From assembly GCF_023347255.1 (NCBI RefSeq), contig NZ_CP094466.1:2418001-2482000 (forward strand): a stretch of DNA of 64,000 nucleotides, read 5' to 3'. A program made the translations under genes and the position numbers. How positions within the stretch are numbered: position 1 is the stretch's first letter; each line of letters begins with the position of its first letter. The notes beneath the pieces were generated by a model. It ran no database searches and was not told the DNA's origin. It saw nothing but the letters and a program-made list of their open reading frames with translations. Below are positions 14,387-32,775 of this stretch, piece after piece. The stretch is from Faecalibacterium sp. I4-3-84 (GTDB lineage: Bacteria; Bacillota; Clostridia; Oscillospirales; Ruminococcaceae).

Positions 14387-14437
14387 TAACCCACTATGAC
14401 ACTTTCATCCCTGCGGTCTGCAAAGTGTAGTGGGCTC
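14387..14437 (-). other. MOBV-type origin of transfer (oriT) of element A
   Basis: Read on the minus strand: inverted repeat ACACTTT (14422-14428) / AAAGTGT (14399-14405) with a 16-nt loop, then CATAGTGGGTTAT. TAGTGGGTTA (14387-14396) matches the pMV158-type nick site TAGTGTG/TTA at 9 of 10 positions, and the hairpin-then-nick arrangement is the same. It lies just upstream of the relaxase gene. Closely similar copies lie at 21246-21295 and 32725-32775. Confidence 0.8.
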
Positions 14438-14509
14438 TTCGAGGACTCTCCGAGGGGGAACGTCTCCTGCGGGAGAGCTACGATCAAGTTCGCACAATGC
14501 GAACTTGAT

Positions 14510-14665
14510 CGCTCCGTACGCATCTGAAAAAATTGCGTACGGACTTCAAATAACCTGTACGGCTCGTACGACGTACGGAAATCCGAAATATAAACGATAA
14601 TTCGTTTTAATTTGTTTCAATTCGCCGTACAGATGCGTACAAGTACATACCGTACAGGTTGTACG
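14510..14665. repeat. Cluster of CGTACG/GTACG palindromic motifs
   Basis: At least eight occurrences of GTACG/CGTAC in about 150 bp of AT-rich, gene-free DNA between the relaxase and the regulator. Related, better ordered palindromes stand next to the other two oriT copies (21161-21199 and 32823-32857). They may be binding sites for a replication or recombination protein. The rest of 14317-15002 has no convincing gene. Confidence 0.55.
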
Positions 14666-14775
14666 AACTTCTTCCGTGAAAAAATGCACTTTTTACGGGC
14701 AGGGGTGGACAAGCGGCTCGATGCCCACAAAGCCCCGCACCCTGCGGCCACCGGGCAGGGCGATGTTATGTACTG

Positions 14776-14813
14776 CACCAGAGTACCCCAAAGTGGGAAC
14801 TCTGGTGTTTTTT
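14776..14813 (+). terminator. Intrinsic terminator in element A
   Basis: CACCAGAGT/ACTCTGGTG stem with a 14-nt loop and a TTTTTT tail, upstream of the regulator promoter. Confidence 0.75.
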
Positions 14814-14941
14814 GCTTCCTGCCTGAATATACGGAAAATTTTGCAGGAAAGGCGCAAAAGCGGCAGAACTGCAACGGAAAAAGAAAAATGCCCTCACTGG
14901 TTGCAGGACTGCAACAGCAAGGGCGGAGAGGTAACCGTATA

Positions 14942-14970
14942 TTGAACAAAACGGCAGAGCGTATTATAAT
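14942..14970 (+). promoter_or_regulatory. Promoter of the HTH regulator operon
   Basis: TTGAAC (14942-14947), 17-bp spacer, TATAAT (14965-14970), 32 nt before the ATG at 15003. Confidence 0.8.
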
Positions 14971-15002
14971 GAGGAAAAAGATCAAAAAGGAGGGCCGACC
15001 AC

Positions 15003-15833
15003 ATGGCACAGGAATATCTGCCCGCACCATCCAACGTCCGTCTTGCGGACTTGATGAAAGAGCACAACATAAGCCAACCGGAGCTTGCCAAGGAGATCGG
15101 CTGCTCCAAAAGCACCATCAGCCGCTTCATCAGCGGCGCAAAAGGGACTCTGACCCATGAGCAGGTGCTGAAGATCGCAAGGCTGTTCAACGTGTCCACG
15201 GATTTTTTGCTTGGAGAAACCAACATCCCCGACCGCAAGAACTACGACATTGCCGAACTTGGCCTGTCCGTAGAAGCCGCAAAGAACCTCTACACAGGGC
15301 GTGTCAATACAGAGGTGGTCAATCTGCTGCTGGAAAACGCCCGCTTTGCAGAGCTTACTTACCGCATAGCGCAGTATTTTGACGATACTTTTGCATCCGG
15401 CATCGCAGCACAGAATGCCATGCTCACGACATTGAGCACCCTGCTGCGTACAAGGGTCAAGACCCCGGAAGCAGCCAAAGCCGCAAAGGACATCAGCCTT
15501 CGGAGAAAGCCCGTATATCAAGGCGACCTTGATGACATTGAGATGTATTTCATGGCGGCAATCAAGGAAATCAAAAAGGGTATCGGGAGCCATTATGCCG
15601 AACAGGAAGCCATGAGCAAGAAAGTGGCAGAAAAAATGTTTACAGAACTGACCAAAGGGCAGGATGTGCAGCACCCAACGATTACGGCAGAGCAGTTGAC
15701 GGATGCAATGTTGGACAGCGTTTCGGGCATGGAGGGAGCTACGCCGGAGGCACTGGAACAGCTGCGGAACGGCCTGTTGGGAATCTTGCAGTCTGCCGCA
15801 GAGCAGGAAAACGCCCATGAAGCAGACGAATGA
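15003..15833 (+). CDS. XRE-family HTH regulator with long C-terminal domain
   Basis: A 276-residue DNA-binding protein. Residues about 12-67 form a classic Cro/CI-type helix-turn-helix (ISQPELAKEIGCSKSTISRFISG ... VLKIARLFNVSTDFLLGET). The remaining 200 residues are helical with no known domain that I recognise. AAAGGAGG lies 9 nt before the ATG. It overlaps the next gene by 17 nt, so the two are translated as a unit. It is likely the control gene of element A, setting integrase/mobilization genes or its own operon. Confidence 0.85.
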   Translation: MAQEYLPAPSNVRLADLMKEHNISQPELAKEIGCSKSTISRFISGAKGTLTHEQVLKIARLFNVSTDFLLGETNIPDRKNYDIAELGLSVEAAKNLYTGRVNTEVVNLLLENARFAELTYRIAQYFDDTFASGIAAQNAMLTTLSTLLRTRVKTPEAAKAAKDISLRRKPVYQGDLDDIEMYFMAAIKEIKKGIGSHYAEQEAMSKKVAEKMFTELTKGQDVQHPTITAEQLTDAMLDSVSGMEGATPEALEQLRNGLLGILQSAAEQENAHEADE

Positions 15834-16482
15834 ACGGCTTTGTGCGCTGGCACAGAAAGCCGATGCTGCCGCGCTGGACAGCCTGATCGACAACAACAAG
15901 TCCTTTATTGGCAAGGTGGCAAATGACCTTTTCCGCAGCATGAATCTGGCACAGTCCGGCCTGAACCTTGACACGGACGATTTGAAACAGGCGGGCAATC
16001 TGGGCTTATGGAATGCTGTGCCAAAGTTCGATGCAGCGCGCGGCATGAAGTTCCTGACCTATGCGGCTCCTGCCATCCGCAACGCCATGATGGACATGGT
16101 GCGGGATGCCTTTGCCGCTTTTGAGCAGCGGATGGTAACGGAGGACAAGGACGGCGTCTGCTACCAGCGCGTTTCGCTGGACGATGTTCTGCCGGGAGAG
16201 GAACAACTGCGGCGCATTGAAGCCATAGCCGACCCCTACGCCATGCAGCCGCAGAGTATTATGGAAGAGCAGGAATCGCGCCGGGAACTGTACGATGGCC
16301 TGAAACGGCTGACCCAACGGGAGCAGACCTATCTGCTGTACCGCTATGGCTTTACCGATGGCGAGGAACATCCGCTGATCGGCACGGCGATATACTTTCG
16401 CCTGACAAAAGGCCGCGCCAAAAAGACCGAGGAACAGACCATGGATAACCTGTGGCTGGAACTGCCGTGGTGGTTTGATTGA
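15817..16482 (+). CDS. Sigma-70-like protein with region 2 but no clear region 4
   Basis: A 221-residue protein starting at the ATG at 15817 inside the end of the regulator gene. Residues about 48-90 match sigma region 2 (DDLKQAGNLGLWNAVPKFD, GMKFLTYAAPAIRNAMMD). The C-terminal part has a region-4-like first helix (YDGLKRLTQREQTYLLYRYGF) but then runs into HPLIGTAIYFRLTKGRAKK without a normal recognition helix. It could be a mobile-element sigma factor or a DNA-binding relic. The pairing with a HTH regulator suggests a dedicated control pair for element A. Confidence 0.75.
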   Translation: MKQTNERLCALAQKADAAALDSLIDNNKSFIGKVANDLFRSMNLAQSGLNLDTDDLKQAGNLGLWNAVPKFDAARGMKFLTYAAPAIRNAMMDMVRDAFAAFEQRMVTEDKDGVCYQRVSLDDVLPGEEQLRRIEAIADPYAMQPQSIMEEQESRRELYDGLKRLTQREQTYLLYRYGFTDGEEHPLIGTAIYFRLTKGRAKKTEEQTMDNLWLELPWWFD

Positions 16483-16494
16483 ATGAAAAGAAAA

Positions 16495-16563
16495 ATCGTG
16501 ATTGTGCTACAAGTTTTCTGGAAATTTATGTGCAGCTATACGATTTTGAAAAATTTTGTGGAC
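16495..16563 (+). repeat. Block shared with 59723-59790, upstream of a lipoprotein gene
   Basis: About 69 nt beginning ATCGTGATTGTG and containing CTATACGATTTTGA, clearly related to 59723-59790. Each copy lies about 90-120 nt before a gene for a small lipoprotein. Nothing else in 16483-16683 looks like a gene. Confidence 0.7.
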
Positions 16564-16683
16564 AAACGAAATAAAATAGGCTTGAAGTTCGTTGTTTAAA
16601 CAGAAAAGTTAATAATTATGGTATGATAAAATGCGATAACAAATAAATCGACAAAAATAGATTGAATAAAGGAGAAGAATGCT

Positions 16684-17160
16684 ATGAAAAAAGTAATTTA
16701 CCTGTTTGTGCTATGCATGGTTTTGGGGTTAGCTGGATGTGGGCAATCTCAGGAAAATAAAGAATCATCGACTGAAAGCACTTCAGTACAAGTAGAAAAC
16801 AAAAATGTTAGTGATATAGTATCAAACGAGCATTTAACCAATAATGATACTGCGAATTTTCAAATGCCAGAGGAAGTCTATTATAGTAATGATTTTGATG
16901 AAATTCTGAATATCACTAAAGAAGATGATGGCACATATAGGATCGAGTATAGCGTTACCCATTTGCTTTATGTCGAAAACGCGATTGGAACTTACGATTC
17001 TGAAACAGGGATTCTTAGCTTTAGCGGCAAAGACGACAGAGGAAATGATATAAAAGCAGAAATTGAAAATAAGGGAGATCATCTGGAAGTCACAGTAACT
17101 CAGAGCAACTATGAAGATATTATCGGGACGAAGCAGGAATTTTTTCAAGCAGAGGAGTAA
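16684..17160 (+). CDS. Small secreted lipoprotein, unknown function
   Basis: 158 residues with a lipoprotein signal peptide (KKVIYLFVLCMVLGLAGC; lipobox LAGC, Cys 19). The mature part begins with a Ser/Glu/Asn-rich linker and is followed by a compact beta-rich domain of alternating short strands. AAAGGAGAAG precedes the ATG. Base composition is AT-richer than the core genes, in keeping with cargo acquired by transfer. I do not recognise the domain. It is the cargo gene nearest the right end of element A. Confidence 0.8.
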   Translation: MKKVIYLFVLCMVLGLAGCGQSQENKESSTESTSVQVENKNVSDIVSNEHLTNNDTANFQMPEEVYYSNDFDEILNITKEDDGTYRIEYSVTHLLYVENAIGTYDSETGILSFSGKDDRGNDIKAEIENKGDHLEVTVTQSNYEDIIGTKQEFFQAEE

Positions 17161-17215
17161 GAACAAATAGGCGACAAAAGTTGTGGAAAAACTTGATAAC
17201 TATTAACAAACCGAT

Positions 17216-17250
17216 AGCCCTCTATTTGCAATGATCGCAAGTAGAGGGCT
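17216..17250. terminator. Hairpin terminator between convergent genes
   Basis: Stem AGCCCTCTATTTGC/GCAAGTAGAGGGCT (one bulge) between the lipoprotein (+) and the right-end gene (-). The T-tract is weak on both sides. Confidence 0.6.
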
Positions 17251-17281
17251 GTTGGTCTGTTTGGAATATTCTAATTAAAGG

Positions 17282-17530
17282 TCAATCTTCTAATCTGCCA
17301 TGGTCGCGGCCGAGCGAGAGATAATGTTCAATCTCACCACCCAGTACAAGCTGGGCGTACTCCAATGGTTTATTGTAGAGCAGCCAGTCCAGTTCTGCCC
17401 GCTGTGCCGGGGTGTTGCCGTACTCGTCCTCAATGGCAATGCAGTCGATGGCAACAGCAGAGCCGTCCGCAAACTGGGCTTCCACCCGGTTGGTGTCCAT
17501 ATTGTAGTGGCAAGAAAGCAGTTTGTTCAT
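17282..17530 (-). CDS. Small conserved right-end protein (DUF6061-like)
   Basis: 82 residues, one of four related small proteins in this window (also 18012, 39228, 40059). Shared features: FNMD or YNMDT near residue 10, a string leading to IDC, an acidic IED, then AQRAELDWLLYN and a Tyr/Leu-rich end. The family name is from memory and the function is unknown. The start at 17530 is set by GGAGG and by the paralogue at 39482. It lies about 270 bp inside attR1, the same position as its paralogue next to attR2. Confidence 0.75.
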   Translation of the reverse strand: MNKLLSCHYNMDTNRVEAQFADGSAVAIDCIAIEDEYGNTPAQRAELDWLLYNKPLEYAQLVLGGEIEHYLSLGRDHGRLED

Positions 17531-17628
17531 AGTCGTGTCCTCCATGACTTGATTTTGATGTTCGGCCACTCAAACCAATGCCGTCAAGCCGGTGGGGGAT
17601 AGAGCGATTTTATTTGTCGGGGAGTAAG

Positions 17629-17658
17629 TGCACGGTTTCTGCACGGATTTTGCACGGT
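17629..17658. repeat. Right integrase arm-type repeats of element A
   Basis: TGCACGGT, TGCACGGA, TGCACGGT at 17629, 17640, 17651 (11-bp period), 141 bp before the attR1 core. They match the left-end triplet. Confidence 0.75.
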
Positions 17659-17798
17659 TTCAAAACGTGCAGAAGGTGCTTTTCGTTGCAAAATCCGACA
17701 AAGGGTGCAGAAATTACTGGGTGAAAAATCACGTTGTCTTGATTAAAAATAACGATGACTCGAAACTTCCATAAATTGAGACGAACCGGCGGCTTGCT

Positions 17799-17843
17799 CT
17801 CTTAATCAGTGGGCCCAGGGTTCGAGTCCCTGGAGGTGCACCA
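17799..17843 (+). other. attR1 / att junction (tRNA-Lys 3' fragment)
   Basis: 45 nt identical to tRNA-Lys bases 32-76. The 5' half of a tRNA is missing, so this is an attachment-site remnant, not a tRNA gene. It separates element A from segment B. Confidence 0.92.
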
Positions 17844-17852
17844 CAACAACAA

Positions 17853-17896
17853 AATCCGAACTTTTTTCCAATAGGAGAAGGGTTCGGATTTTTTGT
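17853..17896 (+). terminator. Terminator next to att core (segment B left end)
   Basis: AATCCGAAC/GTTCGGATT stem followed by TTTTTG. A near copy lies at 39898-39941 after attR2. It may be the original chromosomal terminator of tRNA-Lys. Confidence 0.85.
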
Positions 17897-18011
17897 ATTC
17901 TTTGGAAAACAGAACGAATCCCTTGCTTCCATCGAAAAACGTCCTAGACCTTATCATAAGAAAGCACGACAGACCACTGTGAGAGTGCCGTAAGGCGGAA
18001 AGGACACAAAC

Positions 18012-18263
18012 ATGAAGTACGATGAAAGAGCCTGCAAATTCAACATGGACACCGGCTGCGTGGAACTGCTGCTCCGGGATGGGAGAATGATCTCCATTGA
18101 CTGCACCGGGATCGAGGATGCACTGGATGTGACCATTGCACAGAGGTCAGAACTGGACTACCTTATCTATAACGACCCGCTGAGTTATGCCGATTTGATT
18201 TTGAATGGTGACCCGGAGGAATATTTGAAGAATGTGGCCGGGAGCCATGGGTTAGAAGATTAA
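18012..18263 (+). CDS. Small conserved att-adjacent protein (DUF6061-like)
   Basis: 83 residues, paralogous to the product at 17282-17530 but on the other strand, on the outer side of the att core. Shared pattern: FNMDTGCVELLL, IDCTGIEDALD, AQRSELDYLIYNDPLSYADL. GGAAAGGACAC precedes the ATG. An almost identical 5' part is found after attR2 (40059). I infer that this gene belongs to the conserved module around the attachment site. Function unknown. Confidence 0.78.
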   Translation: MKYDERACKFNMDTGCVELLLRDGRMISIDCTGIEDALDVTIAQRSELDYLIYNDPLSYADLILNGDPEEYLKNVAGSHGLED

Positions 18264-18271
18264 GGGCAAAA

Positions 18272-18309
18272 CAAAAAACAGGGTGCGTCCCTGAATAGGA
18301 CGCACCCTG
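18272..18309 (-). terminator. Minus-strand terminator outside transposon copy 1
   Basis: CAGGGTGCGTCC/GGACGCACCCTG stem followed by TTTTTTG on the minus strand. It lies beyond the transposon end at 18357 and probably ended the gene that the transposon interrupted. Confidence 0.88.
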
Positions 18310-18423
18310 CCAAAAGCCACAGACAATAGCGATATGTACAACAGGGAGTTCCCCAGAGCAGAGTTCCCATAAAACAGTATTTGCAAAAGTTCCCTAAATG
18401 GGGAAGATTTGGCGTGACTTCGG

Positions 18424-20061
18424 TCACGCCTTTTCTTTTGCTTCCAGTTCATCCAGAGGGATGTACCCCAGCCCGTCGTACTTGATATGGATGTGCTGCA
18501 CCCGCTTTCCGCTGGACTTATCCGGGGCATCTACATAGATAGCCGACACCAGTTCACGGAGAGCATAGGGAGTGAGTTCTTCAATATGAACGTACTTGTG
18601 CGCTTTCTGGACGAATTTTTCAATATTCTCGATTTGCTGTTCCTGTACTTCGATTTCCTGTTGGATAGAGAGGGATTCCTCTTCCAGCTGCTTCTGTTCG
18701 GCATCGTAGCTCTGGCTCATCATGTCGAAGCGGTCATCGCTCAGCTTTCCATTGGCGTTGTCCTCGTAGATTTTCATGAACAGCCGTTTGAGGTCTACAA
18801 TCCGCTTCTCATTCCGGGCAAGCTGCTTCTTCAGGACGGTCAGCTTTTCGCTGCTTTCCACACGAAGCTGCTCCTCCATGACCTTGCGGAAGTAGTTTTC
18901 ATGACGGAGAATGTAGTCCGTCACCCGCTGAACATGACTCAGCACACGTCCTTCCAGAACCTTTACCCGGATGAAATGTCCCTTGCACTTGCTCCCGTTC
19001 TTCTTGTGCAGAGAGCAATCAAAGAAGTCTTGACTGAAGTCCCTGTTATTGGACGAACCATATTGCATCTTGGAACCGCAGTCAGCGCAGTAGACCATAC
19101 CGGAGAAAATGCTGCTCTTGCCTGTTCGGGTCATACGGTGACGCTGGCTGCGAATCTCCTGAACCTTTTCAAACACATCATCGTCAATAATGCGCTCATG
19201 TGTATCCGGGAAGATAGCCTGATTTTCCACAGGATTCAGATGTCTCTTTTTATCCCAGATAGAGTTAGTATAGGTCTTGAAGTTGACTGTGCAGCCAGTG
19301 TACTCCCGGCGTTCCAGAATCAAACTTACTGCTCTTTTATCCCAGCGATAAGGGTCTTCCGGGGCAGGTGCGTTTGTGCTCCGGCCATGGCTCAACTTGT
19401 AGGCGGTAGGAGTCAGAACTTTATCTGCCCACAGTTGGTTCGCAATTTGGGTCGGCCCACGTCCCTCCATGCACATGGAGAAGATGCGCTTCACAATCGC
19501 AGCCGCTTCCGGGTCAACAAGCCAATGTTTCGGGTTCTCCGGGTCTTTCACATAGCCGTACGGCACATTGACCGTCAGCGGTACTCCACGCTCTCCCTTG
19601 GCCTTCTGAACAGCCCGAATCTTGCGGCTGGTATCGCGAGCGTAAAACTCGTTGAACCAGTTCTTAATGCCCGCAAAATCGTTGTTTACGCTGTTCGGGT
19701 CAATGGTGTCGTAGTTGTCGTTAATGGCAATGTAGCGAACGCCATACTGGGGAAAGGTGAAGTTGGTGTACAGACCTGTCAAGGCAGAATTACGCCCCAG
19801 TCGGGACAGGTCTTTCGTAATAACGATTCCTACACGTCCTGCTTCGATCTCGGCCAGCATACTCTGAAAGCCGGGACGGTCATAGTTCGTGCCGGAGTAG
19901 CCATCATCCACAAAGAATACCGGGTTCGGGAAGTGGTTCTTTTTGGCGTATTCCAGAAGGATGGCCTTCTGGTTCTCAATGGACAGGCTTTCGCCGAGCC
20001 GTGCGTCCTCTTGCGACAGCCGGCAGTAAAGTGCGGTGATCTTATTCGTTGCTCCAGACAT
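18424..20061 (-). CDS. Large serine recombinase (TnpX/TndX-like), copy 1
   Basis: 545 residues from the ATG at 20061, which has a perfect TAAGGAGG; a longer form could begin at 20148. The N-terminal resolvase domain has the catalytic Ser in ALYCRLSQED, and SIENQK, DDGYSGTNYDRPGFQ and TKDLSRLGRN follow. A recombinase domain (VPYGYVKDPEN) and a zinc ribbon (CADCGSKM ... CSLHKKNGSKC) come next, then a coiled coil. Such enzymes excise and insert Tn4451/Tn5397-type transposons through circular intermediates. A hairpin GGCGTGAC/GTCACGCC follows the stop. Confidence 0.95.
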   Translation of the reverse strand: MSGATNKITALYCRLSQEDARLGESLSIENQKAILLEYAKKNHFPNPVFFVDDGYSGTNYDRPGFQSMLAEIEAGRVGIVITKDLSRLGRNSALTGLYTNFTFPQYGVRYIAINDNYDTIDPNSVNNDFAGIKNWFNEFYARDTSRKIRAVQKAKGERGVPLTVNVPYGYVKDPENPKHWLVDPEAAAIVKRIFSMCMEGRGPTQIANQLWADKVLTPTAYKLSHGRSTNAPAPEDPYRWDKRAVSLILERREYTGCTVNFKTYTNSIWDKKRHLNPVENQAIFPDTHERIIDDDVFEKVQEIRSQRHRMTRTGKSSIFSGMVYCADCGSKMQYGSSNNRDFSQDFFDCSLHKKNGSKCKGHFIRVKVLEGRVLSHVQRVTDYILRHENYFRKVMEEQLRVESSEKLTVLKKQLARNEKRIVDLKRLFMKIYEDNANGKLSDDRFDMMSQSYDAEQKQLEEESLSIQQEIEVQEQQIENIEKFVQKAHKYVHIEELTPYALRELVSAIYVDAPDKSSGKRVQHIHIKYDGLGYIPLDELEAKEKA

Positions 20062-20166
20062 TGTTGTGTCCTCCTTACTCTGTGGAGCAACTGTCAGTAC
20101 AGGATTGGTTACCGGGTCAAGTATAGCAGAATTGGGCGCAGTTGTCATTCGTCTGCACCCTCATCT

Positions 20167-20610
20167 TCAAATTTTTTGCTGGGCGTTCTTGGCAACAATG
20201 CGCTCCAGCTTCTTCAAAAAGGATTCCTTGCCCTCATAGCTGCCGGTCACGGTGTAGGTGGTGTGACCGACTTTCTCCGTGGTGGTCAGTTCCGGAATCC
20301 AGAAAGCGGACAGGTTCTTGACATGGAGGTTGCCGTTCTCGTCCACATAAGAGCCGTGTTTCTTCTGCTCTTCGGTCAAGGGCTTCCGCTTGAAGTAGAT
20401 TTCATTTTCGGAGATGCTCACAGTCTCGCTGGTCTGCTCTTTCGGGGCATCGTCATACAGCTGGGCGAAAAATGCCAGTGCATCTTCGGGTGAGTCTTCC
20501 TCCATGAGTTGCTCGAAAACTCGCTGTTCCTCTGCCGAGAGGTTGTTCCATGCGGCTTCCAACTCCTGCTCGTTGGCTGCGTTGACAAAGGCTTCGATCT
20601 CTTTTTTCAT
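20167..20610 (-). CDS. TnpW-like transposon protein, copy 1
   Basis: 147 residues, identical to the copy at 33888-34331. The N-terminal half is acidic and helical (EAFVNAANEQELEAAWNNLS). The C-terminal part (EKVGHTTYTVTGSYEGKESFLKKLERIV) resembles the short TnpW family found beside serine recombinases in Firmicutes transposons. GGAGG lies 7 nt before the ATG at 20610; the longer open frame to 20691 has no ribosome site. It may regulate or assist the recombinase encoded just downstream. Confidence 0.75.
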   Translation of the reverse strand: MKKEIEAFVNAANEQELEAAWNNLSAEEQRVFEQLMEEDSPEDALAFFAQLYDDAPKEQTSETVSISENEIYFKRKPLTEEQKKHGSYVDENGNLHVKNLSAFWIPELTTTEKVGHTTYTVTGSYEGKESFLKKLERIVAKNAQQKI

Positions 20611-20639
20611 GGTGCATCCTCCTTTGGCTGCGGAAAGCG

Positions 20640-20710
20640 TTTTTTCAAAAAATATGGGTTTTCGTGAGAGCAAGAATCGTCCCGTGGCCACAAATTTTCA
20701 ATACTCGAAA
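20640..20710 (-). repeat. Conserved leader block upstream of TnpW-like gene (copy 1)
   Basis: Read on the minus strand: GGAAATTTTCGAGTATTGAA then AATTTGTGGCCACGGGACGATT. The same block occurs at 33782-33830 and, slightly diverged, at 22719-22770. It holds the partial hairpin GGAAATTTTC/GAAAATTTG and lies just before the coding start in both transposons. Confidence 0.7.
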
Positions 20711-20776
20711 ATTTCCTGTCCCCTTTGGGACAGCTTCTTGTTGGGGCGTGCCTGCCCCAAACCCTGCTAGGTGATT

Positions 20777-21061
20777 TCATTCTTGGTGGTTGCTATATTG
20801 CTTATATGCCTTTTCAAATCCTGATTTGTTATATATGATAAATTTATAACATTCTCCATCTTTCATGGAAATTGCTGCAACAGGAACGACCATCTGACTC
20901 CATGAAAGCTCCCTTATCTCGTTCATGGGTAATACAAGGTTGCGATACAGTGGACTGACTGTGAGCTTTTGAGTTGAATATGTAATGCTCTGTTCATCAA
21001 TGTACAAACCACCGCCAATGATTCCATTACGGCATAAGCTACACACAAAAGTTTTTCCCAT
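20777..21061 (-). CDS. Transposon cargo protein, unknown (copy 1 only)
   Basis: 94 residues with an N-terminal CSLCRNG motif, then a small beta-rich domain (GGGLYIDEQSITYSTQKLTVSP, LPMNEIRELSWSQ, FIIYNKSGFEKAYKQY) reminiscent of GRAM/PH-like domains; that likeness is only an impression. GGAGG stands 10 nt before the ATG. It is absent from transposon copy 2, where two unrelated genes occupy the same site. The gene is AT-richer than its surroundings, which fits recent capture. Confidence 0.7.
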   Translation of the reverse strand: MGKTFVCSLCRNGIIGGGLYIDEQSITYSTQKLTVSPLYRNLVLPMNEIRELSWSQMVVPVAAISMKDGECYKFIIYNKSGFEKAYKQYSNHQE

Positions 21062-21160
21062 AATATTACCGCCTCCTATTAGTTGATGGTTGGTTAAGTT
21101 GAGTATATCATATTGATTTCCAGAAGAACACCCCTATATAGGAGATTTTAGCCGTTTTAC

Positions 21161-21199
21161 TGCGTACGTGCGTACGAGAGATTGGTACGCACGTACGCA
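21161..21199. repeat. GTACG palindrome of transposon copy 1
   Basis: Perfect 15-bp inverted repeat TGCGTACGTGCGTAC (21161-21175) / GTACGCACGTACGCA (21185-21199) with a 9-nt spacer. Copy 2 carries a 12-bp-arm version at 32823-32857. Confidence 0.85.
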
Positions 21200-21245
21200 G
21201 CGATTTGCCCGAAGCGCACCCTATATAGCCGTTTCCCCCTCGGAG

Positions 21246-21295
21246 AGCCCACTACACTTTGCAGACCGCAGGGCTGAAAGCGTCATAGTGGGTTA
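21246..21295 (+). other. MOBV-type oriT in transposon copy 1
   Basis: Inverted repeat ACACTTT (21254-21260) / AAAGCGT (21277-21283, one change) followed by CATAGTGGGTTAT; TAGTGGGTTA lies at 21286-21295. Layout is the same as in element A, but no relaxase gene is in this transposon. Confidence 0.75.
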
Positions 21296-21450
21296 TTACA
21301 CTTCCGCAGAAGTGCCTTTTCCTCGCCGCAGACAGCCCGGTGCACCTTTGTGAGAGCTTTCTGTCCGGCGAATCCACATCGCCCACAGGCGATGTGAGCA
21401 GGGATTCCAAAGGGGCGCAGCACCCTTGGCACACGACTTTGGTACAAAGT

Positions 21451-21822
21451 CTAGTGTGTTACACCTTTCCAGAGGTGTATACGTTCCTGAAATGCAAAAA
21501 GCCCCATACCCAACACCTTAACGGTGCGGACATGGGACTTGATGCTTCCTCGGCCTAGCCGGGTACTCCGTAACCAATCCTGACAGGCAGTTGCCGTGTC
21601 ATTTTTCGAAAACTGTTTTACGGATACCCAGCAGTCGGGAACGCTCTGCTTTTCTTTGCTGGGGGCATGATGAGCCTGCTCCGCCTGCCATGCAGCAAAC
21701 TCCCGCTGGCCTTCCTCACTGTTCCAGCAGGCAAGGATGGCCGGGTAGAATGCTCGTGCCAGACGGTCAATGACTTCATCAGGGTAAGGGGAAGTGTTTG
21801 TGGACTTTTTCTTTTTGTTCAA
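21451..21822 (-). pseudogene. Mobile-element gene interrupted by transposon copy 1 (chimeric ORF)
   Basis: Open frame of 123 residues from TTG at 21822 (AAAGGAG upstream). The first about 60 residues (YPDEVIDRLARAFYPAILAC, then EEGQREFAAWQAEQAHH) look like a real helical protein. From about 21635 downward the sequence is transposon DNA shared with copy 2, so the C-terminal about 60 residues come from the transposon end. The original 3' part is not identified on the far side at 18310-18357. Function unknown. Confidence 0.55.
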
Positions 21823-27488: not shown

Positions 27489-27516
27489 CGCAATGGCAGA
27501 AAATTGCGGCCATATA

Positions 27517-27532: not shown

Positions 27533-27545
27533 ATTTCGCTCAAAG

Positions 27546-27574
27546 AAAAACCTGCGGGGCGAGGCCCCTCAGAT
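27546..27574 (-). terminator. Leader terminator/attenuator hairpin
   Basis: Minus strand: CTGAGGGGC/GCCCCGCAG stem with a 3-nt loop and TTTTTCTTT tail. It lies between promoter P1 and promoter P2 of the large Tp47-like gene; an equivalent hairpin lies at 28738-28766. Confidence 0.75.
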
Positions 27575-27575
27575 G

Positions 27576-27631
27576 GTTAGACTTGGCTAATTGACGAAAC
27601 CTAAAATAGCACTCCTGTAGAGCCTTGTCAA
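27576..27631 (-). promoter_or_regulatory. Promoter P1 and second metal box of the large Tp47-like gene
   Basis: Minus strand: TTGACA (27631-27626), 17 bp, TATTTT (27608-27603), followed by a second box (27576-27591, forward GTTAGACTTGGCTAAT). A transcript from P1 would meet the terminator hairpin at once, giving a roughly 50-nt leader RNA. Confidence 0.7.
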
Positions 27632-27716
27632 GAAAAAGCGGGGATGTTTATGGAGGCTAATTTTTCGGCAGAAGGTGCCGACATCAGGATGAAGTTTGCT
27701 GGTTCCGGCCATGGAG

Positions 27717-27754
27717 CTGGACTGCGGCTGCGGCGGCGGGGCGAACATCAAAAC
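27717..27754 (+). pseudogene. Methyltransferase motif I fragment (recombination scar)
   Basis: 38 nt almost identical to 30165-30202 inside the methyltransferase gene, encoding LDCGCGGGANIK. There is no frame around it. It marks a past duplication or deletion joining the methyltransferase region to the Tp47-like region. Confidence 0.75.
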
Positions 27755-27765
27755 AGAGAAAAGAA

Positions 27766-27790
27766 AGGCCGCCTGTTTCAAGCGACCTTG
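27766..27790 (-). terminator. Terminator after the small Tp47-like gene
   Basis: Minus strand: AAGGTCGC/GCGGCCTT stem followed by TCTTTTCTCT. About 60 nt around it are duplicated at 26098-26160. Confidence 0.7.
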
Positions 27791-27835
27791 CCGTTTTGTA
27801 CTGTATTTTGCTGGATCAGGCAGTTTTCCGCAGCC

Positions 27836-28687
27836 TCACAGTGCCACGCTGACCGGCAGGACATACACACCGTCGGCGGCGTAGAAGGTGATCTGAGTAA
27901 TCGTCTTGCCGATGATGGATGCAAAGTAAGGATCATCGGCATTGAGGCCCAGCTTGGTACCATGCCAGATGTTGGCCACATGACGCAGGCCGTACTCACT
28001 GCCATCGGCGGTGGTCAGAACTACGCCGTAGACCTTGTTGGCCTTGTAGTCCAGATCAAAACCGGAGATTTTCATCTCGTAGGTGGCGTGGTGACCGTTG
28101 GTATTCAGTTCCACAGTGGTACCCTCTACGGTGGTCTCGGCGGCGCGGACCTTGCCGAACTCCCACTTGCCGCTCAGCAGGTCATACCAGGCGGTAATGT
28201 AGCAGGCAGGGGTCTCACTGAGCTTGTAGTAAGCGTAGCTCTCGTTCTCAAACAGGGCATCCACACCGGTATAGGTGGTAGTGGATTCCTTGCCCTTCAG
28301 GGTAACGGTGATGTCGCAACTGTCGGCATCGGTGACCTGCTTTGCATTCTTCAGCGCCCACGGGGTCAGTACCTTGACCGGGAAGGAAACACCGGTGATG
28401 TCGGTGCCGTCCGCGTTGACATGGTAGGAACCGGCAGCAAGCTTGCCTGCACGGGTCTTGTTTTTGGTGGCGCTGGTAACAGCATCGATCTCAGATGCGT
28501 TGTCCACACCGGCAGCTTTGTAGAAATCGGCGTAAGGGATGTTCATCTGGACATAGCTGGAGGACAGGCAGTTCTCCTGCTCCACCTCTTCCGCAGCGAA
28601 GGCCGGGACTGCCACAGCGCACACCAGCATAGCAGCAGCAAGTGCACCTGCAAATACTTTTTTCAATCTCATTGTAACACACCTCAA
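27836..28687 (-). CDS. Secreted Tp47-like protein (small)
   Basis: 283 residues with a Sec signal peptide (basic start, then FAGALAAAMLVCAVAVPAFA). The body (SYVQMNIPYADFYKAAGVDN, EIDAVTSATKNK, SYHVNADGTD, WYDLLSGKWEFGKVRAAE) is distantly like the large Tp47-like product and has the same DAVTSAT/DAVSRAT element. GTGT-type leader with AGGTG before the ATG. Both upstream promoters and both metal boxes are conserved with those of the large gene, so the two are paralogous units under one control. Confidence 0.7.
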   Translation of the reverse strand: MRCVTMRLKKVFAGALAAAMLVCAVAVPAFAAEEVEQENCLSSSYVQMNIPYADFYKAAGVDNASEIDAVTSATKNKTRAGKLAAGSYHVNADGTDITGVSFPVKVLTPWALKNAKQVTDADSCDITVTLKGKESTTTYTGVDALFENESYAYYKLSETPACYITAWYDLLSGKWEFGKVRAAETTVEGTTVELNTNGHHATYEMKISGFDLDYKANKVYGVVLTTADGSEYGLRHVANIWHGTKLGLNADDPYFASIIGKTITQITFYAADGVYVLPVSVAL

Positions 28688-28708
28688 TCACTGGTTTGAA
28701 AATATATG

Positions 28709-28823
28709 GTTAGCTTAGTCTAACATTTCGCGCAAAGAAAAACCCGCGGGGCGAGACCCCTCAGATGGTTAGAATAAGCTAATTACTGGAAATTAAAATA
28801 GCACGTCCACGGGGTGTTGTCAA
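28709..28823 (-). promoter_or_regulatory. Tandem promoters, two metal boxes and leader hairpin of the small Tp47-like gene
   Basis: Box 1 GTTAGCTTAGTCTAAC (28709-28724) overlaps P2 (minus strand TTGCGC, 17 bp, TAACCA). Hairpin with T-tail at 28738-28766. Box 2 (28768-28783, GTTAGAATAAGCTAAT). P1 is TTGACA (28823-28818), 17 bp, TATTTT (28800-28795). Same order and spacing as at 27517-27631. Confidence 0.75.
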
Positions 28824-28882
28824 GAAAAAGCGGGGATGTTTATGAAGGTTAATTTTTTGGCAGAAGGTGCCGCAAAGCCCTT

Positions 28883-28963
28883 GGGCAACACCGCACAATT
28901 CCCGCCTGACGGCTTGAGCACCGTTCCGGCGGCTGTGGCGCTTAGAATTATGCGGGATTGCCC
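28883..28963. repeat. MITE-like element with 19-bp terminal inverted repeats
   Basis: 81 nt with ends GGGCAACACCGCACAATTC and GAATTATGCGGGATTGCCC; 16 of 19 bases pair. The middle has a further GC-rich fold. No coding capacity. It sits just upstream of the ZIP-gene promoter. Confidence 0.7.
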
Positions 28964-29020
28964 TTGACCTTTTTGCCGGAGCGCAGTATACTTTTTATGT
29001 GGTTAGTTATATTTAACCAC
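28964..29020 (+). promoter_or_regulatory. Promoter and metal box of the ZIP gene
   Basis: TTGACC (28964-28969), 17 bp, TATACT (28987-28992). Directly downstream is the inverted repeat GTGGTTA/TAACCAC (28999-29020) over the expected start of transcription, a good repressor site. Confidence 0.8.
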
Positions 29021-29033
29021 AAGGAGGTTCGAC

Positions 29034-29816
29034 ATGATACAAGACGCATTCTGGGGGATCCTGATCCCCTTTCTGGGCACGAGTCTTGGGGCAGGCTGTG
29101 TATTCTTTTTGAAAAAGTCCCTGAGCGACGGCATCCAGCGTGCCCTCACCGGCTTTGCAGCCGGGGTCATGGTGGCGGCATCGGTTTGGAGTTTGCTGAT
29201 CCCGGCCATGGAGCAGGCTGCAGATCTGGGCAGGCTGGCATTTTTCCCGGCGGCGGTGGGTTTCTGGCTTGGGATCCTGTTTTTACTGCTGCTGGATCAT
29301 CTCATCCCCCATCTGCACCAGAACAGTTTGCAGGCCGAAGGCCCCAAAAGCCAGCTCCAGCGCACCACCATGATGGTTCTGGCGGTGACGCTGCACAACA
29401 TCCCGGAGGGCATGGCAGTGGGCGTAGTCTATGCCGGATACCTTGCCGGGACGGCTCAGATCACTGCCGCCGGGGCGCTGGCGCTTTCTCTTGGCATTGC
29501 TATCCAGAACTTCCCGGAGGGTGCCATCATCTCCATGCCCCTGCGGGCGGAAGGAATGAAAAAAGGCCGGGCGTTCTGGGGCGGCGTACTGTCCGGCGTC
29601 GTAGAGCCCATCGGGGCAGTGCTGACGGTTCTGGCGGCAGGCATCGTGGTGCCCGCTTTGCCCTATCTGCTCAGCTTTGCCGCCGGAGCCATGCTGTATG
29701 TTGTGGTGGAGGAACTGATCCCGGAAATGTCGCAGGGGCAGCACTCCAACGTTGGCACCGTGTTTTTTGCGGTAGGCTTCAGCGTGATGATGGTGCTGGA
29801 TGTGGCATTGGGGTGA
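29034..29816 (+). CDS. ZIP-family divalent metal transporter
   Basis: 260 residues, about eight membrane helices. ZIP signatures: the His-containing helix IV TLHNIPEGMAVGVVYAG (about 121-137) and helix V AIQNFPEGAIISMPL (about 159-173), whose His/Asn/Glu residues form the binuclear metal site. A cytoplasmic loop with LDHLIPHLHQN follows helix III. It imports Zn2+, Fe2+ or Mn2+. AAGGAGG lies 8 nt before the ATG. The metal box in its promoter supports metal-dependent repression. Confidence 0.93.
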   Translation: MIQDAFWGILIPFLGTSLGAGCVFFLKKSLSDGIQRALTGFAAGVMVAASVWSLLIPAMEQAADLGRLAFFPAAVGFWLGILFLLLLDHLIPHLHQNSLQAEGPKSQLQRTTMMVLAVTLHNIPEGMAVGVVYAGYLAGTAQITAAGALALSLGIAIQNFPEGAIISMPLRAEGMKKGRAFWGGVLSGVVEPIGAVLTVLAAGIVVPALPYLLSFAAGAMLYVVVEELIPEMSQGQHSNVGTVFFAVGFSVMMVLDVALG

Positions 29817-29874
29817 CGGTTGGGGGTCTTGAAAACGAAATCTATTTCGGAATCTCCGAAAATACCTGAACTTC

Positions 29875-29964
29875 TTGACAGCGACAACAGCAGGGCGTAT
29901 TATTTTGGCAGAAGGGCCGCTGAGATGCGGCTTTTTATAGAACAAAAAGTTAGCTTTTACTAAC
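29875..29964 (+). promoter_or_regulatory. Promoter, leader hairpin and metal box of the methyltransferase gene
   Basis: TTGACA (29875-29880), 17 bp, TATTAT (29898-29903); then hairpin GCCGC/GCGGC with TTTTT (29916-29936); then box GTTAGCTTTTACTAAC (29949-29964). The order promoter, terminator, box repeats what is seen at the Tp47-like genes. Confidence 0.72.
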
Positions 29965-30029
29965 TACAGCGCGAGGAACTGCGTGAAAAGCATTGCATTG
30001 TGAACTGTAAATAGAAAGAGGGTGGCGTT

Positions 30030-30641
30030 ATGTCCTTTTTTGAAAACACCCGCAAGCCCGTAGGTCTTGGCGGGAAGATCATGGTTACCATGATGAACTT
30101 TGGCCACAGCGCAATGGCAGCGTGGGGGCTGCGTTTTTTGCAGCCTGCCCCGGATGCCAGGGTGCTGGACTGCGGCTGCGGTGGCGGGGCGAACATCAAA
30201 ACGCTGTTGAAACTGTGCCCTAAAGGCAAGGTGCAGGGCATCGATTATTCGGCTGTCAGCGTAGAAAAAGCGCGTAAGGTCAATGCGGGCGCCATTGCGG
30301 CAGGACGGTGTACCGTGCAGCAGGCAAGTGTGGCAGAACTGCCGTTTGAAGCGGAGCAGTTTGAGGTAGTGACCGCCTTTGAAACGGTCTATTTCTGGCC
30401 GGAACTTGTGCAGAATTTCAGAGAGGTCTATCGGGTGCTGAAGCCCGGCGGGGTCTTTTTCATCTGCAATGAAGCAAACGGCGAAACAGCAAAAGACGAC
30501 AAATGGACACAGATCATCAATGGCATGACCATCTACACGGATACTGCCCTGAAAACATATCTGGAGCAAGCAGGCTTCTGTAAGATTCAGAGCCACAAAA
30601 ATAAAAAGGGCTGGCTGTGCGTTACGGCGCAAAAGCGGTGA
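30030..30641 (+). CDS. Class I SAM-dependent methyltransferase
   Basis: 203 residues. Motif I DARVLDCGCGGGANIKTLL (about 43-61) binds SAM; acidic D after GKVQGIDYSAVSVEKA; later motifs FEVVTAFETVYFWPEL and VYRVLKPGGVFFICNE are typical of small-molecule methyltransferases of the UbiE/COQ5 type. Substrate unknown. AAGAGGGTGGCG precedes the ATG. The metal box upstream puts it with the ZIP and Tp47-like genes, so a role linked to metal or metallophore handling is possible, by inference. Confidence 0.85.
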   Translation: MSFFENTRKPVGLGGKIMVTMMNFGHSAMAAWGLRFLQPAPDARVLDCGCGGGANIKTLLKLCPKGKVQGIDYSAVSVEKARKVNAGAIAAGRCTVQQASVAELPFEAEQFEVVTAFETVYFWPELVQNFREVYRVLKPGGVFFICNEANGETAKDDKWTQIINGMTIYTDTALKTYLEQAGFCKIQSHKNKKGWLCVTAQKR

Positions 30642-30663
30642 AATAGTGTAAGGAGAACGAAGT

Positions 30664-30762
30664 ATGGAGCGAAAAGAAGCAATCCGCAGCGCCTATCGTA
30701 CGGTAGGTATGGCGGTCATAGCGGCTGTACTGGCGGCAATTATGACAGTTTTTATTCACTGA
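30664..30762 (+). CDS. 32-residue single-span membrane peptide
   Basis: Starts at ATG 30664 (AAGGAGAACGAAGT upstream), 20 nt after the methyltransferase stop. Sequence begins MERKEAIRSAYRTVGMA and has one hydrophobic helix (VIAAVLAAIMTVFIH). Too short for firm assignment, but the good ribosome site and operon position support it as a real small membrane protein. Confidence 0.6.
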   Translation: MERKEAIRSAYRTVGMAVIAAVLAAIMTVFIH

Positions 30763-30773
30763 GGAAGGAACCT

Positions 30774-31015
30774 ATGAAATACAAAATCGAGAAAAACACC
30801 GTGCAGGAGACGCTGATCCTCCCGCTGTATTCCCGGAAGCTGTGTACCGAGCTGTATCCGAACCTTTACCAAGACGAAACAGCGGTGCATCTGATCGACC
30901 AGATCGACTACGATTTTTCAGGGGCGGAGAAAAGCTCCCGCAGTCTGATGCGGCGGTTCGGTGCGCTGGAGGTGGCCATGCGGCAGAATGACCTTGCCTT
31001 TGAGGTGCGGGAATG
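30774..31015 (+). pseudogene. Truncated TcmP/O-methyltransferase-like gene
   Basis: The first about 80 residues (KNTVQETLILPLYSRKLCTELYPNLY, DFSGAEKSSRSLMRRFGALEVAMRQ) match the N-terminus of leucine carboxyl/TcmP-type O-methyltransferases. At about 31015 homology ends where the convergent zinc-ribbon gene is joined, so the SAM-binding domain is lost. The frame runs on to 31160 through unrelated DNA. GGAAGGAACCT precedes the ATG. A deletion or insertion at this junction broke both genes. Confidence 0.7.
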
Positions 31016-31394
31016 CGTTACGCTTAAACAAGTGCTCATTTTGAGCACTTGCAGCATCCGTAACACGTTTTCGATAGTCTTTTTGCCGACAGGCATTGCT
31101 GCAATAACGGGCACCTGCGCGTTTGGGCGTGAATTTTTCGCCGCAGCACTGGCAGACTAAATCTTGACGGCGCATTTGGCGGTATTCCCGCTGCCGCCGA
31201 TTGTTGGCCTGATTGCCGCACCAGTAGCTGTGACAGTATTTCTTGGTGTAGATGGTGGTGTAGAACACCCGACCGCAGCCGCCGCAGATAAGTTTGCGGA
31301 TAGCGTATCCTCCGGTGGTAAAACCCGTTTCCTCATACGATTCTTTCAAATAATCCTGATTGTTCTGCTCCCATTCTTCGTTTGTCACATACAT
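30918..31394 (-). CDS. Zinc-ribbon protein with readthrough 3' end
   Basis: From ATG 31394 (AAGGAGGG upstream). The first about 125 residues hold three cysteine pairs: CGGCGRVF with CHSYWCGNQ, CQCCGEKF, and YCSNACRQKDYRKR, typical of small element-borne zinc-finger proteins. At about 31015 the frame enters the antisense of the truncated methyltransferase and continues for about 30 residues to 30918, so its own stop codon was lost at the junction. Likely DNA- or RNA-binding; no better assignment. Confidence 0.65.
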   Translation of the reverse strand: MYVTNEEWEQNNQDYLKESYEETGFTTGGYAIRKLICGGCGRVFYTTIYTKKYCHSYWCGNQANNRRQREYRQMRRQDLVCQCCGEKFTPKRAGARYCSNACRQKDYRKRVTDAASAQNEHLFKRNAFPHLKGKVILPHGHLQRTEPPHQTAGAFLRP

Positions 31395-31426
31395 GGAGAG
31401 GACCCTCCTTTCACTGGCGTTACAGA

Positions 31427-31459
31427 AAAACAATGTGGTCAATTTGACCACATTGTTTT
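31427..31459. repeat. Near-perfect 16-bp inverted repeat
   Basis: AAAACAATGTGGTCAA / TTGACCACATTGTTTT separated by a single T. It could be a bidirectional terminator (A- and T-tracts outside the stem) or an operator for the zinc-ribbon gene, whose ribosome site begins about 20 nt away. Confidence 0.85.
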
Positions 31460-31474
31460 CTGGTAACTGAAGAA

Positions 31475-31582
31475 TCAACGTTTAGCCGTTCTCTCTGCAT
31501 GGATTTCCTGCCCCCTTCCGGCGGCGTTTTCCGGCTCTCCCTCGTGAGGGGTCATCGCCGGGTATCCCATGCAGACGGTCAT
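31475..31582 (-). CDS. Possible 35-residue ORF
   Basis: Starts MTVCMGYPAMTPHEGEPENA and ends AERTAKR. No clear ribosome site; the frame stays open further upstream (LLPNLAPNLDNR). It may be the 3' end of a lost gene. The remaining gene-free DNA at 31583-31867 shows inverted GGTTCGGGTT/AACCTGAACC-type pairs but nothing I can name. Confidence 0.3.
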   Translation of the reverse strand: MTVCMGYPAMTPHEGEPENAAGRGQEIHAERTAKR

Positions 31583-31867
31583 GCGGTTGTCAAGGTTCGG
31601 TGCCAGATTTGGCAATAAAAAATCGCCACACAACAACCTGAACCTGACCATCCCTTCCGGGGTGGCCTTGGTTCGGGTTCGTTATGTAGCGATAAGAAAG
31701 TCAAAAACTTGCTCCGGCTCCTTCGGGAGCCGAGCTGGAACTCTAAGTAAATATGTTATATTAAATTGTTGGAATAGATTACCACAAAAAACGAGCTTTG
31801 TCAACAAAAAAATCCGAGAATACGTTGCTTTCGGCAGAATGCAAGAAAATGTATCAAAAACTTTGGC

Positions 31868-31901
31868 AAAAAGAGAGAGGGCTGGACGATGCCAGCCCTC
31901 T
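31868..31901 (-). terminator. Terminator of the sirtuin operon
   Basis: Minus strand: AGAGGGCTGG/CCAGCCCTCT stem, then CTCTTTTTG. It lies 7 nt after the sirtuin stop codon at 31908. Confidence 0.92.
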
Positions 31902-31907
31902 TGTGGG

Positions 31908-32383
31908 TCACAACTGCGCTATAATAGCGCCAATATCTGCATGAATGCAGACAGACTGCCGCTCGATCTCCGGCGGGCAAACGGACTGCCCTTGATTGAT
32001 GCAGACGTAGAATGCGTTTGGATTTTTAGCGGTCATCCGCCAGAACGGATACTTGATGATGACCGGGGTGTTGTAGCCAACACCCAATTCCAGAAAGAGG
32101 ATGCGCTGCCCCTCGTGGCGGCGCAGAAATTCGCTGTACCGGTCGGCAGCAGTGTGCCAACCCACGTCCTCCACAAAGGTATCGTCTGCACGAAGGTTCA
32201 TGCTCATGGGTCTGCCGCAGTGCGGGCAGTGGGGAACAAGCTCGGACGGGATATAAGTTTTCAGGATGGTATTCTCCGGCACGGTCAGCTGACCATCCGG
32301 TGCAATGATATACCCTTGCGCTTCCACCATCTGCCGGATAAGCTTATCATTGTCATACGTTTCCTGACAGCAGGGCTCACTGC
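31908..32383 (-). pseudogene. SirTM-type sirtuin, 3' fragment (split by transposon copy 2)
   Basis: C-terminal half of the sirtuin whose N-terminal half is at 36142-36583. It has the zinc-site cysteines CSEPCCQETYDN and CPHCGRPMSMNLR, then GWHTAADRYSEFL and the NAD-binding end LFLELGVGYNTPVIIKYPF and SVCIHADIG. The gap between the halves (32384-36141) is transposon copy 2. The open frame seems to begin in transposon DNA at 32423, but no natural start exists there, so the protein is inactive unless the transposon excises precisely. Confidence 0.88.
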
Positions 32384-32724
32384 ACTGCTGTGTATCCGTA
32401 AAACAGTTTTCGAAAAATGACACGGCAACTGCCTGTCAGGATTGGTTACGGAGTACCCGGCTAGGCCGAGGAAGCATCAAGTCCCATGTCCGCACCGTTA
32501 AGGTGTTGGGTATGGGGCTTTTTGCATTTCAGGAACGTATACACCTCTGGAAAGGTGTAACACACTAGACTTTGTACCAAAGTCGTGTGCCAAGGGTGCT
32601 GCGCCCCTTTGGAATCCCTGCTCACATCGCCTGTGGGCGATGTGGATTCGCCGGACAGAAAGCTCTCACAAAAGGCATACCCGGTTGTCTGCGGCGAGAA
32701 AAAGGCACTTCTGCGGAAGTGTAA

Positions 32725-32775
32725 TAACCCACTATGACACTTTCATCCCTGCGGTCTGCAAAGTGTAGTGGGCTC
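32725..32775 (-). other. MOBV-type oriT in transposon copy 2
   Basis: Minus strand: ACACTTT (32766-32760) / AAAGTGT (32743-32737) inverted repeat, then CATAGTGGGTTAT with TAGTGGGTTA at 32734-32725. The core matches element A's oriT exactly; there is no relaxase gene in the transposon. Confidence 0.78.

Follow-up and report, generated by a model that had tools for sequence, protein, structure and literature searches.

The 64,000-nt stretch of Faecalibacterium sp. I4-3-84 DNA analysed here (contig NZ_CP094466.1, positions 2,418,001 to 2,482,000; hereafter the window) contains two related transposons, B and C, which we consider with good confidence to be relaxase-less integrative elements of 3.3-3.8 kb that carry two MOBV-type origins of transfer (oriTs) side by side. 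Hitchers of this kind have been given the term iOriT (PMC11389934), and B and C probably hitch between cells on the relaxases of other elements. The features from which we draw this reading are defined ends with terminal inverted repeats (TIRs), a TnpX-type recombinase, two oriT-like sites (oriT1 and oriT2), the lack of a detectable relaxase, varied insertion sites and copies in several species. The preliminary description of this DNA had recognised oriT1 in both transposons and in a neighbouring relaxase-encoding element, A, but overlooked the second oriT and a second possible type of helper.

Relaxase-less transposons B and C

The features of the two transposons are as follows.

18357..21633: transposon B, relaxase-less, 3277 bp; TIRs 18357-18384 and 21602-21633
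18424..20148, minus strand: TnpX-like large serine recombinase of B, 574 aa (Resolvase, Recombinase, Zn_ribbon and DUF4368)
20167..20691, minus strand: 174-aa protein of B, C-terminus weakly TnpW-like
20777..21061, minus strand: 94-aa cargo protein of B, without a family match at E 0.001
21248..21314, plus strand: putative oriT1 of B, first inverted repeat (IR1) with one mismatch (AAAGCGT)
21430..21478, plus strand: putative oriT2 of B, 12-bp hairpin, 2-nt bulge, nick TAGTGTG/TTA, downstream hairpin
32386..36141: transposon C, relaxase-less, 3756 bp; TIRs 32386-32417 and 36114-36141; flanks AC/AC
32541..32589, minus strand: putative oriT2 of C, hairpin-plus-nick pattern
32706..32772, minus strand: putative oriT1 of C, same 20-mer as in A and B
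32961..33395, plus strand: 144-aa cargo protein of C, no confident family
33444..33698, plus strand: Cys-rich CPCC cargo protein of C (Pfam Cys_rich_CPCC, 2.1e-25)
33807..34331, plus strand: 174-aa protein of C, weakly TnpW-like, 100% identical to the B copy
34350..36074, plus strand: TnpX-like serine recombinase of C, 97.9% amino acid identity to that of B

Comparison of copies revealed sharp ends (left TGCTGGGTATCCGTAAAACAG, right GGGAACTCTGCT) that form imperfect TIRs, with 17 of the first 24 positions matching in C. The best PDB match of the B recombinase is TnpX (2mhc, E 4.9e-35, residues 33-148), and the 174-aa protein reaches the Pfam TnpW family at E 0.0036 and 17.5 bits, under the cut-off of 25. 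Three cargo arrangements were found: the 94-aa protein in B, the 144-aa and CPCC proteins in C, and a third in other genomes. No relaxase was detected among the eight open reading frames (ORFs) of B and C scanned with Pfam, and tblastn searches with one query from the relaxase group of element A (MOB1) and two from a second MOBV group (MOB2, see below) found nothing inside 17 two-ended copies of the transposon. Queries for the CHC2 primase and D5 helicase likewise gave nothing inside these 17 copies, and the transposon ORFs scanned include no replication gene. The earlier account of B and C as serine-recombinase transposons without a relaxase is thus upheld: they are bounded units in which a TnpX-type recombinase, and no relaxase, was detected.

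The dinucleotides flanking the transposon (AC, CT, AG or GG) are identical on both sides in 15 of the 17 two-ended copies. The two exceptions, B itself and a copy at locus L053, have unequal flanks (AC/CT), which suggests past recombination between copies. In 13 of the 17 the insertion point is the centre of a palindrome, defined as at least 12 of 16 complementary arm positions, a value reached by none of 2000 shuffled flanks; these 13 targets are not independent because several belong to one repeat family. Transposon C is among the four non-palindromic exceptions and interrupts a gene that we take to be sirtuin-like, next to a reading frame that is presumably macrodomain-like. The empty site was sought for C, and an uninterrupted target occurs in genome G407, where it is 95% identical over the junction, and at 70-79% identity in five further genomes (genomes are numbered G, loci L; G000 is the present genome). 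The transposons therefore combine their own recombinase, defined ends and, for C, an empty site with the lack of a relaxase inside, as expected of an iOriT element.

In two other species the recombinase gene of the transposon is interrupted near codon 57-63 (L057/L123 in G171, L185/L116 in G418) by an insertion of about 18-20 kb that carries another serine recombinase. In F. prausnitzii ATCC 27768 the transposon forms a contig of 3118 bp (L105) with a stated coverage of 705, which would fit either a collapsed repeat or an excised circle.

Anatomy of oriT1 and its relation to element A

Element A, located to the left of B, comprises the following.

11127..17843: element A, an integrative and mobilizable element (IME) in tRNA-Lys(CTT), with identical 45-nt att direct repeats at 11082-11126 and 17799-17843
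11051-11126: tRNA-Lys, insertion site of element A
11289..12740, minus strand: tyrosine integrase of element A (Pfam Phage_integrase, 2.1e-10)
13051..14316, minus strand: MOBV relaxase (MOB1) of element A, candidate helper (Pfam Mob_Pre, 9.6e-30)
14368..14434, minus strand: putative oriT1 of element A, IR3/IR1 hairpin, nick TAGTGGG/TTA, IR2, downstream hairpin

The relaxase aligns with MobM (PDB 4lvi, E 3.2e-5) across the HNER and HxDE stretches, and further copies of it are present in this genome at G000:1556167 (100%) and 767326 (92%). Its start lies 63 nt from the end of an identical 20-mer, CATAGTGGGTTATTACACTT, which is common to all three oriT1 sites (14379, minus; 21284, plus; 32717, minus) and confirms the positions given for them in the preliminary description. 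The 20-mer lies within an ungapped 78-nt block, of which the A and C copies are 96% identical; the region common to the transposons and element A extends for about 80-110 nt, and the flanks outside it are unalignable. As previously noted, only the A copy adjoins a relaxase gene, which is the single relaxase-family match among the window ORFs scanned. The 3' end of the tRNA-Lys and DUF6061 genes are duplicated about 22 kb apart in the window (17285-18172 and 39237-40219).

The earlier count of three sites proved too low. A search with the pattern ACTTTN{2,26}AAAGN{2,7}TAGTGNGTTA detected five hairpin-plus-nick sites in the window, the two additional ones (21436-21461, plus; 32558-32583, minus) being the oriT2 sites of B and C; 100 dinucleotide shuffles contained no match (mean 0.00), and a chance origin was ruled out. 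The shared ACACTTT-loop-AAAGTGT hairpin described previously is intact in A and C, but in B (21248-21303) the right arm reads AAAGCGT. The proposed placement of a hairpin before the nick is also borne out, except that the stem is longer than first described, since CCCACTA pairs with TAGTGGG as well. In the predicted single-stranded fold, CCCACTACACTTT forms a stem with AAAGTG-(3-nt bulge)-TAGTGGG, so that the end of the stem coincides with the predicted nick; the fold energies are -11.4 kcal/mol (z -4.08) for the A/C sequence and -9.9 kcal/mol (z -2.83) for that of B. The IR1 hairpin is thus nested in a longer bulged stem that ends at TAGTGGG/TTA.

This arrangement resembles the oriT of pMV158, as described in PMC5863519 and PMC5090054, on which our comparison is based: IR1 lies 8 nt before the nick, IR3 has a 3-nt bulge and ends at the nick, and IR2 spans the nick (PMC5863519), the nicks being TAGTGTG/TTA for MobM and TAGTGCG/TTA for MobSag (PMC5090054). 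With a hairpin before a TAGTGNG/TTA nick, and an alternative longer stem reaching the nick, the three sites are by their sequence organisation MOBV-type oriTs. Conservation of the fold was examined in a set of 48 distinct sites that excluded L180 and any site at a locus edge. The arms of IR1 are not part of the search pattern, yet at each position they pair in 46-48 of the 48, and one C-G pair is replaced by T-A in four of them. In these four sites the pair is lost from IR2, an argument for IR1/IR3 as the fold under constraint. To the right of the nick, conservation is a consequence of the search itself, which used the 20-mer to find the sites.

Distribution of oriT1

A scan of 31 Faecalibacterium genomes, allowing up to two mismatches, located 65 oriT1 sites in 19 genomes: 42 are at a MOBV relaxase gene, 22 are in the relaxase-less TnpX-like transposon family and one is alone. 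A first pairing by coordinates, using all 43 MOB1 relaxase hits and the recombinase hits of about 90% identity or more (those under about 90%, at 36-62%, were excluded), had assigned 41 sites to a relaxase and 18 to a B/C-type transposon. Inspection of the six left over showed two transposons truncated at a contig end (L181, L182), two more with an interrupted recombinase gene (L057, L185) and one relaxase likewise truncated at a contig end (L058). The sixth, L180 (6433-6450; G408:2103430), is a lone copy of the 18-mer core that lacks both the IR1 hairpin and a mobile element; its neighbourhood gave no match to any query, and we treat it as a chance occurrence or relic. The association with relaxases is tight, since 41 of the 43 MOB1 hits have an oriT1 site and the gap to the relaxase start is 53-64 nt in 40 sites (921 nt in one).

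Outside the genus the same linkage is observed. Among 396 genomes of the family, scanned with up to one mismatch, 22 contained a match; all 19 sites outside Faecalibacterium (16 genomes) precede a MOBV relaxase gene by 61-123 nt. The site also stands before a MOBV gene in all six IMG/VR contigs with an exact match. A plasmid search returned one Subdoligranulum record with two places, of which the one examined is before a MOBV gene. The preliminary description had proposed looking for the block at places with no link to mobilization, and the oriT reading withstands this comparison, with 64 of the 65 genus sites at a MOBV gene or in one transposon family and every extrageneric, viral-database and plasmid site examined linked to a relaxase. 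In the plasmid record, from Subdoligranulum variabile (L204, 6052-9913), oriT1 and the MOBV relaxase gene are located just upstream of tet(W), and MOB-suite types the record as non-mobilizable.

A second oriT, a second relaxase group and a second relaxase-less family

The second site, oriT2, consists of CACACGACTTTGGTACAAAGTC-TAGTGTG/TTA, in which a 12-bp stem with a 2-nt bulge (z -4.25) precedes the exact nick of pMV158. It is present in all 22 transposons, on the same strand as oriT1 and 165-169 nt from it (about 166 nt in B and C). Scanning the genus with up to three mismatches gave 86 sites in 19 genomes, which by coordinates comprise 22 in B/C-type transposons, 21 upstream of MOB2, 20 in elements of a second serine-recombinase family (SR2), two with MOB1 plus CHC2/D5, and 21 outside these classes. 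This classing omitted seven MOB2 hits at 50-52% identity and SR2 hits at 49-59%. A check of the loci of the last 21 sites placed four in SR2 elements (L279, L282, L288, L290), one with MOB1 and D5 (L304) and one with CHC2/D5 only (L281), leaving 15.

MOB2 is a second group of MOBV relaxases; two of its proteins were compared with Mob_Pre and gave scores of 168 and 181 bits. An oriT2 lies within 9 kb upstream on the same strand of 21 of 33 MOB2 hits, a count that includes the seven at 50-52% (21 of 26 at 64% identity or more), as against three of all 43 MOB1 hits. The pairing of oriT2 with MOB2 is nevertheless less certain, because the distance is 0.55-8.3 kb whereas oriT1 and MOB1 are tightly spaced, and the association of oriT2 with MOBV relaxases is weaker than that of oriT1. 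No oriT-like motif was seen directly before the MOB2 start in the two starts inspected. In 17 loci chosen for holding both oriT2 and MOB2, no second hairpin-plus-nick site was recognised by eye, and four stray short nick-like matches were found.

The oriT2 site is often located 1.3-3 kb upstream of genes for a CHC2 primase and a D5-like helicase. At L254, L302 and L304 oriT2 and CHC2/D5 occupy one end and a MOB1 relaxase the other (cut by a contig end in L304), MOB1 being the sole relaxase hit above 26% identity there. These arrangements would be accommodated if the blocks were operators or replication signals (sites of relaxase autoregulation, single-strand origins or primase sites) instead of transfer origins, and MobM is known also to repress its own promoter via IR2 (PMC5863519). 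On the other hand, the hairpin and nick are kept in transposons that have neither a detected relaxase nor a replication gene, and at L262 and L292 oriT2 lies 519-559 nt before MOB2 with no CHC2/D5 hit. A purely regulatory or replicative role for the blocks therefore seems very unlikely to us.

The SR2 family is represented by L242 and 23 further oriT2 sites.

L242, about 5349-7719: SR2 element, 2.4 kb, serine recombinase, with oriT2 as its only oriT

Its recombinase shares about 24% identity with the B/C enzyme, and oriT2 is again directed away from the recombinase. Ten loci start directly after the CCACCA end of a tRNA, one of them (L246) without a recombinase hit; ARAGORN identified a tRNA (Val, Met or Ala) at eight of the ten, and the other two keep its 3' part only. 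Neither MOB1 nor MOB2 was found inside the six SR2 elements checked. There are also SR2 recombinase genes (at least 78% identical) with no oriT2 in reach (12 of 32), several of them at contig ends.

Movement between species

As a chromosomal yardstick we used a 5.4-kb stretch present in all eight transposon-bearing genomes, measured against G000 only, which replaced the beta-glucuronidase gene tried first; the latter is patchy, being full-length in five of the eight (89-93% identical). The 5.4-kb stretch is 99% identical in G417, of the same species, and 80-84% identical in G367, G408, G418, G400, G406 and G171. By comparison, recombinase gene copies in these six other species match those of B and C at 92.7-98.0% identity. 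G417 has three copies, two of which show no greater similarity (94.6-95.8%). Pairwise identity among the copies of G367, G406 and G418 reaches 99.7-99.9%. Recombinase identities well above those of the chromosome, at varied sites, indicate that the transposon moves between species as a unit, in agreement with the earlier proposal that it could move between cells.

Spread by transduction, by transformation or as passengers on conjugative elements would make the oriTs incidental, scattered for instance by site recombination mediated by relaxases. Coupling-protein genes are abundant, and the Pfam name of the MOBV family is plasmid recombination enzyme, both of which suit such a scenario. It accounts less well for the 99.8% identical recombinase genes of G367 and G418, which stand at different sites with different flanks and must therefore have moved as discrete units, or for the presence of both oriT types in every copy; we judge it improbable.

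Helper relaxases and the proposed route of transfer

All eight transposon-bearing genomes encode MOB1 relaxases (2-5 hits each), compared with 11 of the 23 others (p 0.0096), and all eight have matches over the Pfam cut-off to the coupling-protein family of type IV secretion systems (T4SSs). Nicking, circle formation and transfer are steps that we infer. The recombinase would excise the transposon as a circle, after which a resident MOB1 relaxase of the element A type could nick oriT1, or a resident MOB2 relaxase oriT2. Passage of the strand into a second cell would then rely on a coupling protein and T4SS supplied by a resident conjugative element, and the recombinase would re-insert the transposon there, usually at the centre of a palindrome. 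Three tiers of dependence would result, in which the transposon uses the relaxase of an IME and the IME uses the T4SS of an integrative and conjugative element (ICE).

Several observations weigh against relaxase-dependent hitching. B-type copies have one broken IR1 pair, two copies have changed nicks (TAATGGG in L053, TAGTGAG in L117), and the oriT block shows no clear extra conservation within the transposon, as 94 of 266 windows of equal size elsewhere in the left arm vary less. The co-occurrence with MOB1 weakens to p 0.076 when only the 22 better assemblies are counted. MOB2 is not associated with the transposon (six of eight hosts; p 0.24 and 0.63), and no MOB2 hit at E 1e-50 was found in G417 or G171. 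In G367 and G171 the coupling-protein family is matched only in part, which makes a working T4SS less certain in these two, and the spread between species could have used another vehicle.

The altered nicks and the block that is no more conserved than its arm also suit the proposal that a Tn4451-like element, with the order oriT, MOBV relaxase and TnpX, lost its relaxase and retained oriT as a non-functional leftover; elements with oriT1, a MOBV relaxase and a TnpX-like recombinase do occur in the family (L036, L037, L040, L041, L043 and L068). However, the Tn4451-like order has all three components on one strand, whereas the oriT of B/C-type transposons is directed away from the recombinase, and this difference in orientation makes relaxase loss from such an order less likely. 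All 22 copies, whichever of the three cargo arrangements they have, also keep two different oriTs, and the spread between species is recent. A relic is thus an unlikely explanation.

Taking hitching on resident relaxases as the preferred explanation, we lean, with some reserve, towards a wider layered network in which at least two unrelated relaxase-less serine-recombinase families would be moved between species by the MOBV relaxases of resident IMEs: the mostly palindrome-targeting family with two oriTs, and the family of about 2.4 kb at many tRNA 3' ends with oriT2 only. Dual oriTs would allow use of whichever helper is resident, such as MOB1 by itself in the case of G417 and G171.

Comparison with known systems

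The genes of the mobilizable transposons Tn4451/Tn4453 are, as we take them, TnpX, TnpW and TnpZ, the last presumably being the name of the Tn4451 relaxase. B and C resemble these elements in their TnpX-type recombinase, 2-bp crossover site, low site specificity, occurrence in several copies per genome and possible TnpW-like protein; Tn4451 is described as inserting at 2-bp identical sequences with low specificity and encoding a MobV relaxase, and Tn4453-like IMEs as present in 2-6 copies (PMC5704250). In contrast to Tn4451, B and C lack a relaxase, have a varied core dinucleotide (AC, CT, AG, GG) and carry two oriTs that point away from the recombinase. They are classed here as TnpX-type only, not as members of the Tn4451 group, because they encode no MOBV relaxase.

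Similar too are the iOriT elements and mobilizable genomic islands (MGIs), such as SGI1, MTnSag1 and the SXT-mobilized MGIs, which have their own integrase, no relaxase and an oriT matching that of the helper (PMC11389934, PMC5704250). The Firmicutes cases named in PMC5704250 differ in being DDE elements with an oriT that has no significant similarity to that of the helper, whereas B and C carry MOBV-type oriTs that resemble the oriTs of two relaxase groups in their own genus. A further parallel is provided by staphylococcal oriT-mimic plasmids, which are relaxase-less, use the relaxase of the helper pWBG749 in trans and carry two or three oriTs, mostly of different subtypes that match different helpers (PMC4652767). 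Those are replicating plasmids, and the ones with two oriTs have them on opposite strands, a placement for which the authors suspect that same-strand pairs become deleted (PMC4652767); B and C are integrated and have their oriTs on one strand, about 166 nt apart. With pMV158 and IMESag-rpsI the sites share the hairpin plan and a TAGTGNG/TTA nick, that of oriT2 being exactly the nick of pMV158 (PMC5090054, PMC5863519), but oriT1 has TAGTGGG and a longer loop, and B and C have no cognate relaxase in cis.

Dual-MOBV-oriT transposons of Faecalibacterium were not described in the titles, abstracts and passages among the matches listed in a limited literature search. F. prausnitzii genomes are reported to show low synteny and many ICEs and IMEs (PMC6295017), and hitching transposons would offer a concrete route for DNA exchange among them. 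Two short oriT fragments and two relaxases would suffice for a direct test of the relaxase-in-trans step. Relaxase-less elements with an oriT are already known; what is new is the pairing of MOBV oriTs on one strand of a TnpX-type transposon, a chromosomal case in a major gut commensal in which helper and hitcher can be read from the same conserved nick hairpins.

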